A stretch of 64,000 nucleotides of DNA. Origin: Solobacterium sp. Lineage in GTDB: Bacteria > Bacillota_I > Bacilli_A > Erysipelotrichales > Erysipelotrichaceae. The stretch lies in NCBI GenBank assembly GCA_017512725.1, contig JAFWEW010000013.1:1-64000 (forward strand), in the 5' to 3' direction. The stretch's first letter is position 1, and each line of letters begins with the position of its first letter. The position numbers and the translations under genes were made by a program. Shown in pieces: positions 3,465-33,696 of this stretch. The notes under the pieces are model-generated. The model had not been told where the DNA came from, made no database searches, and saw only the letters and a program-made list of their open reading frames with translations.

Positions 3465-5036
3465 TTACCTGTTGAATGCGTCCGGCAGATCATTTTCCAG
3501 CAGGATCGTATCTTCTCCTGTCGTGATCTGATAAACGATATCAAACGCCTCTCTGACCCGGTCTACCGTTGTGACATGGTCCATATCAAATCCGGACAGA
3601 CGCAGGCCTTCGTAGATCGATTCCGTCTGATGCGAACCGACCAGGATCACTTCATCGGCCTTGCCTTTCATGGATGCGCCGAATTCCCGATTGATGGACT
3701 CCTGCTGATCACCCAGTTCAATCATTCCGGGGGTCACGATAACCCGTTTCCCCGGCATCATAGCCAGTACATCCAGTGCCATCGCCGCACCGCTGGGATT
3801 GGAGTTAAAGGCATCGTCAATGAACATACGGCCGTTGATCTTCCGCTGTTCAAGACGGTGTTCCACCTGCTTCATATCCTTGACGCCGCGCTGGATCGTT
3901 TCCCAGGAGATATTCAGGCGCCGTGCTGCAGCGATTGCACAGAGAATATTCAGCACATTGAGTTCTCCGAGCAGCCGGGTCTCAAATTCTACTCTGGTAT
4001 CGTTGTTGACTACCGTAAACTTCATGCCGTGAATGCTGTAGGTGATATTCTCGGCCGTATAATCCGCTTCATGGTGAAGCGCATAGGTAACCGTTTTGAC
4101 TTTGGACTGGATCGGATATTCCCGGATCAGATCATTGTCTGCATTGAGGATGCCAAAGCCGTCCTCCGGCAGACATTCGATCATCTGCATTTTTTCTTTT
4201 GTGATGTTTTCCTGGGAACCGAAGGTCGAAAGATGCTGGGGGCCGATGGAAGTGACTGCACCGATCGTCGGTTTAACGAAGTTCATCAGATAGGTAATAT
4301 CACCGACATGGTCCGCCCCCATCTCACAGACAAATACCCGGTGGATCGGCTTGAGCATTTCCCGGATGGTACGGGTAATGCCCATCGGCGTATTATAGCT
4401 GGCAGGTGTGATCAGAGTATTGTACTGCTCGCTGAGGATCGCCCCCATGATATTCTTGGTCGTCGTCTTTCCATAGGAACCGGTAATGCCGATTTTGATC
4501 AGATCATCATGTTCATTCAGGATCCGTTTGGCATCGTTGACAAAGCCTTCATTGACCCGCTTTTCCACCGGTGCTGTGATAACAGCCATCGGATAGATCA
4601 GCAGCCAGGGTCCGAAATAGGACAGTGCCAGCATTGCCCAGAGATTGAACCGGCGGAACCGGTACAGCAGATAAAACTGAATCAGCAGGTAAAGGATGGT
4701 CATGACAAGGATCTGCCGCTTGACCCGGTCACTGTATACCAATGGTTTGATATATACTGCCTTGCGCTCCCTCAGAATCAGGATCACGGACAGCAGCGCC
4801 GCAATGCACGTGCAGAAGATCAGCACGTTTTCGACGGAAAGACGCATGCAGGCAAATGCCACAGCCGTGATGATCAAGGCCGGAATGGCTGCCCGTTTTG
4901 CGCCGCCTTCAATGTTTTCCGAAACCCATGCGGTATAGCGTTCCAGTTCATAGCGGTTCTGCTGGAACATATGAAGCGCATGCTTGGCAGGAACCAGAGC
5001 CGCAATCAGTATGATGATGTAATAAACGATTTTCAT
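3465..5036 (-). CDS. Membrane-anchored Mur ligase (MurF-like)
   Basis: 523 residues. The first 155 form four or five hydrophobic segments (about 1-20, 48-64, 70-90, 108-125, 133-155) in place of the soluble MurF N-domain. Then comes a Mur ligase core: ATP loop ITGSYGKTTT at 184-193, CEMGADHVGDI, TSIGPQHL, NADND, and the C-terminal domain with RMFIDDAFNSNPSG. MurF joins D-Ala-D-Ala to the UDP-MurNAc-tripeptide in the cytoplasm. The motifs fit MurF best, but without the usual substrate-binding N-domain the exact substrate is uncertain. Starts by ATGA overlap with the hydrolase gene upstream. Confidence 0.85.
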   Translation of the reverse strand: MKIVYYIIILIAALVPAKHALHMFQQNRYELERYTAWVSENIEGGAKRAAIPALIITAVAFACMRLSVENVLIFCTCIAALLSVILILRERKAVYIKPLVYSDRVKRQILVMTILYLLIQFYLLYRFRRFNLWAMLALSYFGPWLLIYPMAVITAPVEKRVNEGFVNDAKRILNEHDDLIKIGITGSYGKTTTKNIMGAILSEQYNTLITPASYNTPMGITRTIREMLKPIHRVFVCEMGADHVGDITYLMNFVKPTIGAVTSIGPQHLSTFGSQENITKEKMQMIECLPEDGFGILNADNDLIREYPIQSKVKTVTYALHHEADYTAENITYSIHGMKFTVVNNDTRVEFETRLLGELNVLNILCAIAAARRLNISWETIQRGVKDMKQVEHRLEQRKINGRMFIDDAFNSNPSGAAMALDVLAMMPGKRVIVTPGMIELGDQQESINREFGASMKGKADEVILVGSHQTESIYEGLRLSGFDMDHVTTVDRVREAFDIVYQITTGEDTILLENDLPDAFNR

Positions 5037-5791
5037 GAACGATCTTCCTTCAGAAATACATCCAGCACCCGGTTGAAACGGTCTGCCTGGTGCCAGTAAG
5101 CGTAATGGTCATCTCCCTCAAAGACGGCAAGACCGGCATCCGGCATTTCCTGTTCCATGACCTGTCCCATCCAGAGCGGAGTCGCGTCATCCTGGTCCCC
5201 ATAGACCAGCAGTACCGGGCACTTCACTTCCGGCAGAAGCGGTCTCAGGTCATCGTTGACGATCTTTACAAACGCTTCCCGCAGGACGCCCTGTGCAGCC
5301 CGGTAGTCCGCTGAGCCGGCACGGTCCTGAAGCCGCTTCAGCGCTTCTTCCTGATGCGCCGTCTTCAGCATCCATTTGGCCGCTTTATATGCCTTTGTAC
5401 GCAGCTTCTGCGCATTCGTGGGAGTGCTGCGGAGTCCCGCCGCACCGGTCAGGCACATCTTATGAACCGGATATTTCACGGCATAGCGGATCGCGACCCG
5501 GCACCCGAACGAATGCCCGATCAGGATCGGATCCTGAATGCCGAACGTTTCTACAAAGTCTCTTAAAAAATCCCGGTAGTCTTCCACCGACCAGGCTTCG
5601 GGAAGTTCTCCGCTTTCTCCAAAGCCCGGAAAATCCAGGTTCCAGACGGAAAAAGCCGGGCTGAGATGGTTCTCGATCTGAGCCATCATCGCCATATTCT
5701 GTCCCCAGCCGTGAAGCAGGATCACATCGTTTCCGCTTCCGCTGTGCCGGTATGCGGTTTTGACACCGTGAATCGTTTTGAATTCTGTCAT
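5033..5791 (-). CDS. Alpha/beta-fold hydrolase
   Basis: 252 residues with the standard order: oxyanion HGWGQN near 27-32, nucleophile elbow GHSFG near residue 91, acid in VYGDQDDATPL, and catalytic His in GDDHYAYW near the C-terminus. No signal peptide. It begins the operon hydrolase-Mur ligase-asparaginase and is coupled to the Mur ligase by a four-base overlap, so a role on a cell-wall or amide/ester substrate is possible. A -10 TACAAT at 5803-5808 would put the mRNA start only a few bases before the ATG, and no Shine-Dalgarno is visible. The substrate is unknown. Confidence 0.85.
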   Translation of the reverse strand: MTEFKTIHGVKTAYRHSGSGNDVILLHGWGQNMAMMAQIENHLSPAFSVWNLDFPGFGESGELPEAWSVEDYRDFLRDFVETFGIQDPILIGHSFGCRVAIRYAVKYPVHKMCLTGAAGLRSTPTNAQKLRTKAYKAAKWMLKTAHQEEALKRLQDRAGSADYRAAQGVLREAFVKIVNDDLRPLLPEVKCPVLLVYGDQDDATPLWMGQVMEQEMPDAGLAVFEGDDHYAYWHQADRFNRVLDVFLKEDRS

Positions 5792-5811
5792 ATACGCGCT
5801 TTATTGTACAT

Positions 5812-5853
5812 GAAAAAAAGCCGGCCGTTAAGCACATCAGGCTTCGGTCCGGC
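5812..5853 (-). terminator. Probable terminator after the sensor kinase gene
   Basis: On the minus strand GCCGG within the last codons can pair with CCGGC at 5824-5820, followed by seven T. The loop is long, so the call is moderate. Confidence 0.45.
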
Positions 5854-7297
5854 CGCTCTTCCGCTCCTCCCGCTCCTGGCGGCGGATTTCTTTTGCTTTT
5901 TCGCGTTCTTCCTTTTTCTTTTCCCGCTGGAACGCCCGGATTTCCTTCTTGTCCAGTTCCTTCCAGATCCGGAAACAGACACCGTTGGCAAGGTTTTCTG
6001 CGGCGATCCGGTAGCCGTAGGTCGTTACGATCTTATAGACAATCGAAAGCCCCAGTCCAAACTGACCGTCGGTTCCCTTTTCGTAGGGTTTGAACAGCTT
6101 GGAAAGCCGGTCTTCCGAGATCGGCTGTCCGTCATTGATAACCTTCAGTTCTCCCGGATGCAGTTCCAGGCGGATCACCGTATCCGCATAGCGGAGCGCA
6201 TTGTCCACCAGATTCTCGACAACGATCCGCCAGGGATCCTCATCCCCGTGAAAGAGCACCCCACGGTCACATTCCCGCTCAAAGCTGATCTCGGGACGGA
6301 TGACCTTCAGGGACAGCAGCACCTTATCCACGACATCATTCATATTGAGGGTATCCCCTTCCGGACAGTCATCCAGAAGATAATCCATCTTGTTCAGCGC
6401 AATCAGCGAACGTACTTTCTTTTCCAGCCGGTCCGCATGTTCAATGATCACATCGATCGATTTTTCCAGGGAACCATACGGGTAGACACCATCCTTGATG
6501 GATTCCCCGTAGCTGCGGATCGTCGCAATCGGGGTCTTGAGGTCATGGGAAATATTCTGAATCATCTCCTGCTTTTCCCGTGACTGTTTCTGCAGTTCCA
6601 GATCCATCTCCCGCAATGCTTCGGCCACTTCACCGATCTCATCCCTGCGGCTGATGTTCAGCTCGGCAGGCTCATCATTTTTGATCTTGGTAATGTAAGC
6701 CTTGATCTGGTTCAGCGGAACAATGATCGTAGTGACCCAGACGGTCAGAATGATAAACAGTGCGATCGCTACCAGCATGTTGGCATTGACGATATTGTTG
6801 ACCAGAAGACTGCGGAACTGGGTGGACGTATCAGCCGACATGATGGTGATCAGGTACCGGCCGTCCTTCAGTTTTGAGATCGTATACAGCAGACTCTCAT
6901 CTGTATCTTTCGGTGCTTTATAAATACCGTCACTGGGCCCGTCCCCTGCCAGAAGCAGATCTGCCTGCATCTTTGTGACCGCAGAACGGGAGAACGTGAT
7001 GTCCTCTCCGGGAAGGGTCGTGAAATCCTCATCCGCCTCCACAATGATATGGACGATGCCGCTGTCATCGGACGGGAAATACGTGCGGCGCACATGATCA
7101 TTTTCATTCAGATAATAGGAAAAACTCGTATGCGACGCATGCAGCATACGGTACATTTCGGACGTTGTGAATTCATTGATTCCGGGGGTCAGAAACGCAA
7201 AGATAAAAATGGTCAGAATGGAAATCACAACAAATAATATGGTCAACAGCTGCTGGGCCAGCGTAAGCTCCCGCAGCCACAGGCGAACACGTTTCAT
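5837..7297 (-). CDS. Sensor histidine kinase, CssS-like
   Basis: 486 residues: membrane segments at about 17-37 and 170-193 flanking a roughly 130-residue extracytoplasmic sensor region, a HAMP linker, HisKA with phospho-acceptor His near 251 (NISHDLKTPIATIRSYGESI), and HATPase with ENLVDNALRYAD and GLGLSIVYKI. The last 35 residues are very rich in Lys, Arg and Glu. The SYGESIKDGVYP stretch resembles CssS, the secretion-stress kinase of Bacillus, recalled from memory. It is coupled to the response regulator by a four-base overlap. The signal is unknown; secretion or envelope stress is inferred. Confidence 0.9.
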   Translation of the reverse strand: MKRVRLWLRELTLAQQLLTILFVVISILTIFIFAFLTPGINEFTTSEMYRMLHASHTSFSYYLNENDHVRRTYFPSDDSGIVHIIVEADEDFTTLPGEDITFSRSAVTKMQADLLLAGDGPSDGIYKAPKDTDESLLYTISKLKDGRYLITIMSADTSTQFRSLLVNNIVNANMLVAIALFIILTVWVTTIIVPLNQIKAYITKIKNDEPAELNISRRDEIGEVAEALREMDLELQKQSREKQEMIQNISHDLKTPIATIRSYGESIKDGVYPYGSLEKSIDVIIEHADRLEKKVRSLIALNKMDYLLDDCPEGDTLNMNDVVDKVLLSLKVIRPEISFERECDRGVLFHGDEDPWRIVVENLVDNALRYADTVIRLELHPGELKVINDGQPISEDRLSKLFKPYEKGTDGQFGLGLSIVYKIVTTYGYRIAAENLANGVCFRIWKELDKKEIRAFQREKKKEEREKAKEIRRQEREERKSGRTEA

Positions 7298-31109: not shown

Positions 31110-31772
31110 TCATTCCTTCTCATCAATCCCGTCAAGCTGTGCGGAATAGATCAGCAGCAGTGCAAACCCCAGCAGGATGCCGCCGAGAATATCGGTGAAC
31201 CAGTGCACGCCGGACAGGAACCTTCCGAGGACCAGCACGAGCATATTGATCACACAGAATGCCCGAAGGATCAGATCAAGCGCATCCCGTTCCACATACC
31301 GCTTTACCAGCATGAAGGCACTGCCCATGACGACGCAGCCCATCAGTGAATGGGAAGACGGGAATGACGGTTCCGGGTGAAGGTCCCCCGGCATGATGAC
31401 CGGCCGGTAATTGATGACGATCACTTTATTAAACAGAACATAGAACACGAAAATGGCGAAATATAGACCTGCAAGATACAGCAGTTCCCGGTCGATTTTA
31501 AACAGATTTTTACGTTGGATCCACTGGACAAGCCCCATAACCGCAAAGATGCCGACGATGCCGATCGTAACGATACCGGCAATTTTGGTCAGCATATAGA
31601 CATCCTGATTGGTGCCGATCATGTCCCGGAACATGACGTTGAGATGCGACAGACCGATGGAAGTTCCCTCCGGTCCGATCGGCGCCACATCCACCGTTTT
31701 TAACAGAACTGCCAGAAGGATGAACAGTGCGAACAGCACTGCCGACAGAATATATTTCGCTTTTTTGCTCAT
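31110..31772 (-). CDS. PAP2-type membrane phosphatase
   Basis: 220 residues with five or six membrane helices and the three PAP2 motifs: KVIVINYRP (KxxxxxxRP), PSSHS with the active His, and GRFLSGVHWFTD (SR-x5-H-x3-D type, first position G). Likely dephosphorylates undecaprenyl pyrophosphate or phosphatidylglycerophosphate at the outer face. Single gene; GGGAG ribosome site, -10 TATAAT at 31822-31827. Confidence 0.9.
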   Translation of the reverse strand: MSKKAKYILSAVLFALFILLAVLLKTVDVAPIGPEGTSIGLSHLNVMFRDMIGTNQDVYMLTKIAGIVTIGIVGIFAVMGLVQWIQRKNLFKIDRELLYLAGLYFAIFVFYVLFNKVIVINYRPVIMPGDLHPEPSFPSSHSLMGCVVMGSAFMLVKRYVERDALDLILRAFCVINMLVLVLGRFLSGVHWFTDILGGILLGFALLLIYSAQLDGIDEKE

Positions 31773-31896
31773 GTTTGATTACTCCCTATGAAAGATCGTT
31801 CTTTGAACAACGACATACAGGATTATAACGCTAAAGGGCCGGAATGTGTTCCTGTGCCGGAAAGAAAATCGGATTCTTCCCCGATAACAGAAATGA

Positions 31897-31912
31897 GGCT
31901 GCCTCAGCAGCC
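31897..31912 (-). terminator. Possible terminator after the RNase J-like gene
   Basis: GGCTGC-CTCA-GCAGCC stem; on the minus strand it is followed by the weak T tract TCATTTCTGTT. Confidence 0.4.
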
Positions 31913-31921
31913 CCGTAATTT

Positions 31922-33589
31922 CTAGTCTTTTGTGTTGATCTCTACGATCGCCGGCAGGATCATCGGCCGTTTTCCGGTTTCCTTCATAACGTAGCGGGCA
32001 ATCTTATCTCTTGCCTCCGCCCGGCATTCCAGATTGTCATAACGGTTTTCCTTTACCGCATCATTGATGACATTTTCCATGATCAGTCCGACTTCACGGA
32101 TGATATAGTCCGCATCCTTGAGATAGATCACGCCCCGGCTCTGCACATCCGGTCCGCCGATAATCTCCTTGGTCGCATGGTTGACAACCACACCGACAAC
32201 GATCGCCCCGTCGGTGCTGAGGATTTCCCGATCCTTGAGCACCATGCCCTGGGCATCGAGACTGTCGCCTCCGGATACCATGACATCTCCGACCGGTACG
32301 CGCTTCATATCCCGCTGCAGCTGTCCGTCTTCAATGGAAGCGATCTGTCCGTTCTCCAGAACAATGATATTGTTGGCCGGGTAGCCCATTCCAAGCGCGA
32401 TATTGGCATTGGAGATCAGCTGCCGGTATTCTCCCTTGACCGGAACATAATACTGCGGGTTCAGCAGGAAGATCATCATCTTGATGTCTTCGATCGATGC
32501 ATGCATGGAGAAGGTCCGTTTCCGGTCAATGCCGAATACATGCGAGGTTTCCTTGTACAGATCATCTTCCATGCCGGAAGCGTTGCGCTCGGTTCCCGGC
32601 ACGGCCGGTGAGGCAATGATCACGGTATCGCTCGGACGCAGCTGGATCAGATCATCTTCCCGGATCGCGATCTTGTGAACCTTGCGGAAGATCGTGCTTC
32701 CGGTGCCGCCGATAATGACAACGACATTTTCCAGACTGTTGTCGAAGTTCTGCGGTGCGATTTCAAGACCGGCCGGAATACGATAGTAGCCAAGCTCTGC
32801 CATGTCGGCCATCAGATTGCGCAGTTCTTCATCATAGATCATGATCTTGCGGTTGAACTTGTTGGCAAGCTCGATCAGTTCAATGATGCGGTAGAGATTC
32901 TGGCTGTATGCCGTGCAGACGATTCTGCCCTGGGCACTGTCAAAGATCGGTTCAATCTGGGACGTGATGCGGTGATTCGGAGAAGAATGCCCTTCTCTTG
33001 TCGAACCGACCGATTCGGTCAGCAGTGCCAGCACGCCGCGCCGTCCGATTTCCGTTACATCATTGAGATCAAAGCGGAACGCATCCTTCTTGATGTCATA
33101 GTCGATGATGAATTCACTCGAATACACCACATAGCCGTCTTCGGTGCGGATCGCAAGCCCGTAGCCGTCTGCGATCGACTGTGTGGTTCCAAAGGTCCGG
33201 ATCTCCGTCTTGTCGATTTTGAAACTGGCATTGCGGCGCAGCCGGTGGATCTCAACATCCTTGATGCCCTCCCGGCGGGCAATGCGGTCAAACATCTTTG
33301 CGGTCAAAGGAGCGGTATAGATCGGAAACTTTGCCTGTTTGAGCAGCTGTGCAAGCGCACCCATGACATCATCATGGCCATGCGTCACAAAAATGCCTTT
33401 GACACGGCTCTGATTGTCAATCAGGTACTGAAAATCCGGCACGATCATCTCGATGCCGAGCTGTTCATCTGCGGTCGGATACCTTAGTCCGCATTCGATG
33501 ACAAAAATATCTTTATTATTCTCGATAACATACATGTTCTTGCCGTCTTCGTCCAAACCGCCGAGGGCAAAAATACGTACCTTAGCCAT
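31922..33589 (-). CDS. RNase J homologue with eroded metal site
   Basis: 555 residues with the whole RNase J layout: metallo-beta-lactamase fold, beta-CASP insert and C-terminal domain (RCEAxARDKIARYVMKETGKRP-like end). The catalytic HxHxDH is HGHDDV (70-75), the TTHS histidine is Gln137 (TTQSIADG), the TGDFKFD aspartate is Glu159 (SSEFIID), the SGHG motif reads ASIED, and PVHGEYR reads PVKGEYR. Nuclease activity by the two-zinc mechanism is therefore unlikely. It may be an RNase J2-like partner of an active RNase J1 coded elsewhere. Start at 33589 behind GGAGGA; -10 TATAAT at 33627-33632. Confidence 0.88.
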   Translation of the reverse strand: MAKVRIFALGGLDEDGKNMYVIENNKDIFVIECGLRYPTADEQLGIEMIVPDFQYLIDNQSRVKGIFVTHGHDDVMGALAQLLKQAKFPIYTAPLTAKMFDRIARREGIKDVEIHRLRRNASFKIDKTEIRTFGTTQSIADGYGLAIRTEDGYVVYSSEFIIDYDIKKDAFRFDLNDVTEIGRRGVLALLTESVGSTREGHSSPNHRITSQIEPIFDSAQGRIVCTAYSQNLYRIIELIELANKFNRKIMIYDEELRNLMADMAELGYYRIPAGLEIAPQNFDNSLENVVVIIGGTGSTIFRKVHKIAIREDDLIQLRPSDTVIIASPAVPGTERNASGMEDDLYKETSHVFGIDRKRTFSMHASIEDIKMMIFLLNPQYYVPVKGEYRQLISNANIALGMGYPANNIIVLENGQIASIEDGQLQRDMKRVPVGDVMVSGGDSLDAQGMVLKDREILSTDGAIVVGVVVNHATKEIIGGPDVQSRGVIYLKDADYIIREVGLIMENVINDAVKENRYDNLECRAEARDKIARYVMKETGKRPMILPAIVEINTKD

Positions 33590-33696
33590 TGTATTATCCT
33601 CCGTAACGTGATGAATTCTTATTGTTATTATAACCGCAATTGATACCGTGCAGAACAAAATCGACCCGACACGGATTATTTATCGGATTATTTATA

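Follow-up and report, generated by a model that had tools for sequence, protein, structure and literature searches.

The window analysed here, a stretch of 64,000 nucleotides from Solobacterium sp., carries the genes for RNase Y, YmdB, MiaB, RNase J2, a PAP2 protein and FtsK in this order. The RNase J2 gene, rnjB, occupies the minus strand at 31922..33589, exactly where the preliminary description had located it, and encodes a protein of 555 amino acids starting with the ATG at 33589; its assignment is based on TIGR00649, four Pfam domains, its position in the J2 clade and dN/dS. The protein scored 418.6 bits against TIGR00649 (cut-off 400) and is thus a member of the RNase J family. It contains MBL (metallo-beta-lactamase), beta-CASP, RMMBL and RNase_J_C domains, the last representing the C-terminal oligomerisation domain (31937..32242, minus strand; PF17770, 85.6 bits). 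A ribosome-binding site, GGAGG, was read from the sequence 8 nt ahead of the ATG (33598..33602, minus strand), which agrees with the good ribosome site described earlier. The good promoter reported along with it was not recovered: a consensus scan found none directly upstream of rnjB, and the total of 6 for the region is near the mean of shuffled sequences (3.4, sd 1.9) and not above chance. Just past the stop codon a terminator-like hairpin of 8 pairs, 6 of them GC, with a T-rich tail was detected (31895..31914, minus strand), as a consensus match only. The gene between rnjB and FtsK (31110-31772, minus strand) encodes a membrane phosphatase of the PAP2 superfamily; no corresponding gene occupies this position in those neighbourhoods of relatives that were read. 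The nearest named relatives of the Solobacterium J2, with up to 93-98% identity, come from MAGs of rumen and gut that bear the label Solobacterium sp. or Erysipelotrichaceae.

To describe the metal centre, B. subtilis RNase J1 (3zq4) was used as reference for the seven ligand positions H74, H76, D78, H79, H142, D164 and H390. In RNase J, metal 1 is held by H74, H76, H142 and D164 and metal 2 by D78, H79, D164 and H390 (J1 numbering; PMC7864078, PMC5383250). Alignment to 3zq4 revealed H, H, D, V, Q, E and K at these positions in the Solobacterium J2; four of the seven ligands are altered (H79V, H142Q, the conservative D164E and H390K), consistent with the at least four changes counted previously, and the full set of a two-metal RNase J is not present. 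Four of the motif changes noted at the outset were found in the protein, each encoded on the minus strand and aligned to B. subtilis J1: HGHDDV (residues 70-75, 33365..33382), in which H74, H76 and D78 are kept and H79 has become V; TTQS (residues 135-138, 33176..33187) with Q for H142; SSEF (residues 157-160, 33110..33121) with E for D164; and VKGEYR (residues 384-389, 32423..32440) with K for H390. The SGHG region, however, had been read as ASIED owing to a misalignment. The motif is SMHA (32498..32509, minus strand), and its histidine, H363, corresponds to H368 of the 5′-phosphate pocket of J1, is kept together with S366 and occurs in 98/98 J2s of the family; nearby, H364 of J1 is replaced by T.

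Exactly two proteins of the Solobacterium genome exceeded the TIGR00649 cut-off, the J2 and an RNase J1 of 599 amino acids (C13:249-1880) in which all motifs are intact (HGHEDH, TVHS, TGDF, TGHA and NHGEY). The second RNase J with every ligand, on which the preliminary description had made its interpretation depend, is therefore present in the same genome. The comparison of J1-type proteins covered 42 sequences, taken from this genus, from the sister family and from other families. In each of them the ligands were intact at all covered positions; one is a partial protein that lacks the second half and covers the first six ligand positions only. Nearly all of the 296 genomes of the class yielded two RNase J matches, with J2 alongside J1. 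Three RNase J genes occur in some genomes of one family (G051 with L163, L203 and L204, also G061, G070 and G079); these hold J2, J1 and a third protein (L203), whose place in the tree is beside the single RNase J of clostridia.

The maximum-likelihood tree was rooted on the single RNase J of Actinomycetota and of one alphaproteobacterium. The genomes surveyed for relatives all belong to the same class or nearer groups and include no Bacillus or Staphylococcus. PDB alignments provided references for J2 and the outgroup, as did chromosomes or large replicons that had been filed as plasmids. The Solobacterium J2 clustered with the J2 proteins of S. epidermidis, Listeria and Cytobacillus (support 100/100), whereas Solobacterium's own J1 fell into the other clade with the J1 proteins of B. 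subtilis, S. epidermidis and Listeria (100/100). Its closest PDB sequence is S. epidermidis RNase J2 (E 1e-94), ahead of every RNase J1. The same protein was the best fold match of the AlphaFold model (mean pLDDT 87.6), with Z 50.1 and an rmsd of 1.9-2.0 over 429-436 residues; 9a5v, a crosslinking model of the RNJ2-RNJ1 complex, was also among the fold matches.

The gene neighbourhood is that of an RnjB as well. FtsK is the second gene downstream of rnjB, past the PAP2 gene, and of 110 neighbourhoods read, some of them truncated by contig ends, 83 show FtsK/SpoIIIE beside J2; these 83 include two very eroded J2s. As in Solobacterium, the J2 gene of Cytobacillus lies near FtsK/SpoIIIE (dapA-J2-ClpP-FtsK). 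The Solobacterium protein is an orthologue of RNase J2 (RnjB) and represents the usual second RNase J. A 5′-phosphate pocket (H368/S366) that outlasted the catalytic ligands might instead be taken to mean that J2 has acquired a purpose separate from J1, such as that of a regulatory protein or one that binds RNA 5′ ends independently; we regard this as highly improbable, as orthology, gene location and its constant occurrence alongside J1 speak for the common partnership. J2 is linked to dapA in Listeria and to both dapA and FtsK in Cytobacillus, and the single RNase J is similarly flanked in Streptomyces (dapA) and Collinsella (FtsK) (L218, L219, L249, L250 set). Because dapA and FtsK also flank the single RNase J, this suggests that the eroded J2 sits at the ancestral RNase J locus and that relocation affected the intact J1 copy.

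The combination of an intact J1 and an RNase J2 whose metal centre is degenerate in one genome is already known. S. epidermidis RNase J2 (6k6w, 8yyk) likewise has four of seven ligands changed, including H79, D164 to E and H390. It differs in keeping H142 and in having H in place of D78 and Q in place of H390, whereas the Solobacterium J2 keeps D78 and shows H142Q and H390K. The J2 proteins (RnjB) of S. aureus and B. subtilis, for which a structural role has been published (PMC3937233), also stand beside an intact J1; the Solobacterium J2 belongs to another lineage, the Erysipelotrichaceae, and carries the ligand pattern HHDVQE+K. RNase J1 (RnjA) shares fold and domain order and differs by its complete set of seven ligands and by its clade. 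A comparable arrangement is found in CPSF100 and INTS9, MBL/beta-CASP proteins with a ruined metal site that are paired with the active paralogues CPSF73 and INTS11 (INTS9: PMC7980224). These are eukaryotic and arose by separate duplications, so they provide an analogy and not a class to which J2 belongs.

The loss of ligands is conserved among homologues. HHDVQE+K occurs exactly in 78 of 98 J2s of the family and is therefore not a product of chance or sequencing error; four ligands are changed in 82/98. Three changes with H142 kept characterize the J2s of the sister family. (Stops flagged as '1 TAG/TAA inside' in J2 matches of the sister family proved to be natural stops, the alignment overrunning a full-length open frame.) In J2s of other families (n = 46) the range extends from one change, H390 only, in 18/46 to six in 3/46, and the reference J2s of S. 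epidermidis, Cytobacillus and Listeria have four, three and one. Four changes thus exceed the count in most J2s sampled outside the family (1-3) and stay below that in the three with six. The earlier statement that the protein is more eroded than a typical RNase J2 holds against Listeria (1/7) but not against S. epidermidis, which it equals (4/7), or against some J2s with 6/7. Judged by the ligand counts in the family, the sister family, other families and the reference J2s, the Solobacterium J2 lies toward the eroded end, yet it is typical of its family, and the solved S. epidermidis J2 is at least as eroded. H142Q is its distinctive step and affects the metal site that is still filled in S. 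epidermidis J2.

Ligand loss alone would also fit a decaying pseudogene or an assembly error. This explanation is refuted, its probability being negligible: the frame is intact in near relatives, with dN/dS values of 0.05-0.18, which are approximate as dS is near saturation and which exclude a pseudogene, the pattern recurs in independent assemblies and isolates, and J2 accompanies J1 in nearly all of the 296 class genomes. The shared HHDVQE+K pattern combined with strong purifying selection demonstrates that rnjB is functional. By domain, conservation in the J2 is highest at the C-terminus (0.81 compared to 0.67-0.73 for the others); J1 domains are more evenly conserved (0.82-0.88).

The main rival explanation concerns catalysis. 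J2 could act beside J1 as a weak one-metal nuclease, with low endo- or exonuclease activity, using a site of H70, H72, D74, Q137 and E159 similar to that of H76, H78, H80, H144 and E166 in S. epidermidis J2. The latter protein holds one Mn and shows low activity despite its changed ligands, and it is affected by the E166A and H80A exchanges (PMC7864078); E. faecalis J2 needs H69 and H71 (PMC5383250), to which the conserved H70 and H72 correspond. Among the J2s of the family, H74, H76, D78 and E164 (J1 numbering) are conserved to 97-100%; for the residues of the Solobacterium J2, the values are 99-100% for D74, H363 and E159 and 97-98% for H70/H72, and this strong conservation leaves room for a single-metal enzyme. 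Nevertheless, the position of S. epidermidis H144, one of the five ligands of that site, is occupied by Q in the Solobacterium J2 and most of the family; a few members have E or M. Of the metal-2 ligands, H79 and H390 have been lost, and the J2 pocket is dispensable in S. aureus (PMC3937233). We therefore consider a one-metal nuclease unlikely.

Most probably, the Solobacterium J2 serves RNase J1 as a partner that is itself non-catalytic or almost inactive, in line with the structural or regulatory partnership proposed originally, which is supported by the intact J1 in the genome, the conserved loss and the placement in the J2 clade. With the metal-2 site (D78, H79, D164, H390) broken and the metal-1 ligand H142 replaced, two-metal catalysis of the J1 type would not be expected. 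J2 would form hetero-oligomers with J1 via its retained fold and C-terminal domain and would stabilise or modulate J1, which would supply the active site for 5′-3′ RNA decay. Complex formation and a dispensable catalysis of its own are inferred from other Bacillota, by orthology with the published J2 of S. aureus and B. subtilis. J1-J2 hetero-oligomers are known in B. subtilis, S. aureus and E. faecalis (PMC5383250, PMC5289998); in B. subtilis both proteins build heterotetramers, and J2 enters the degradosome through J1 alone (PMC5289998). In S. aureus, an active-site mutant of J2 has no phenotype, whereas the J2 deletion does (PMC3937233). Two points argue against a partner role. The J2 proteins of S. 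epidermidis and E. faecalis show measurable nuclease activity (PMC7864078, PMC5383250), and the former was mostly monomeric by itself. Moreover, the remaining cleft residues are not drifting: the conservation of D74, H363, E159 and H70/H72 together with active-site motifs that are 86% identical within the genus exceeds the constraint required of a pure scaffold.

A further, tentative possibility, in our view still doubtful, is that the metals were replaced under selection by a putative conserved charged network (D74, E159 and K385 for metal 2), J1 being controlled through the cleft as a metal-free site, either allosteric or for RNA 5′ ends, and that the J2s of the phylum lost their metals stepwise and independently, down to complete loss. 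By counts, K at position 390 is found in 35 of 42 J2s without H79 compared to 1 of 14 with H79. This candidate co-variation was rejected, as it reflects two independent changes only and lacks significance once the tree is taken into account.

Taken alone, the Solobacterium J2 is a routine gene assignment. Together with its relatives it forms a graded series of J2 metal sites, with one to six ligands lost beside an unchanging J1. It would thereby become possible to address directly at what point, and for what reason, the partner J2 ceased to need metals, a question that studies of J2 in Staphylococcus, Bacillus and Enterococcus have not answered. Six of the seven ligands are gone in the J2s of three other genomes (L173, L193 and L194; genes at ~5001-6680 of the locus), with the patterns KKNISD+E, NSYNAD+K and KSECTD+K, indicating that some lineages retain the gene but have lost the metal site altogether; the FtsK neighbour is still found beside the J2s of L173 and L194. 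Within the family, a few J2s (L130, L131, L141 and L142) carry a histidine at the H390 position where their relatives carry lysine, and two of these also lack H74 (QHDVHE+H), which gives the impression of a renewed change at the site.
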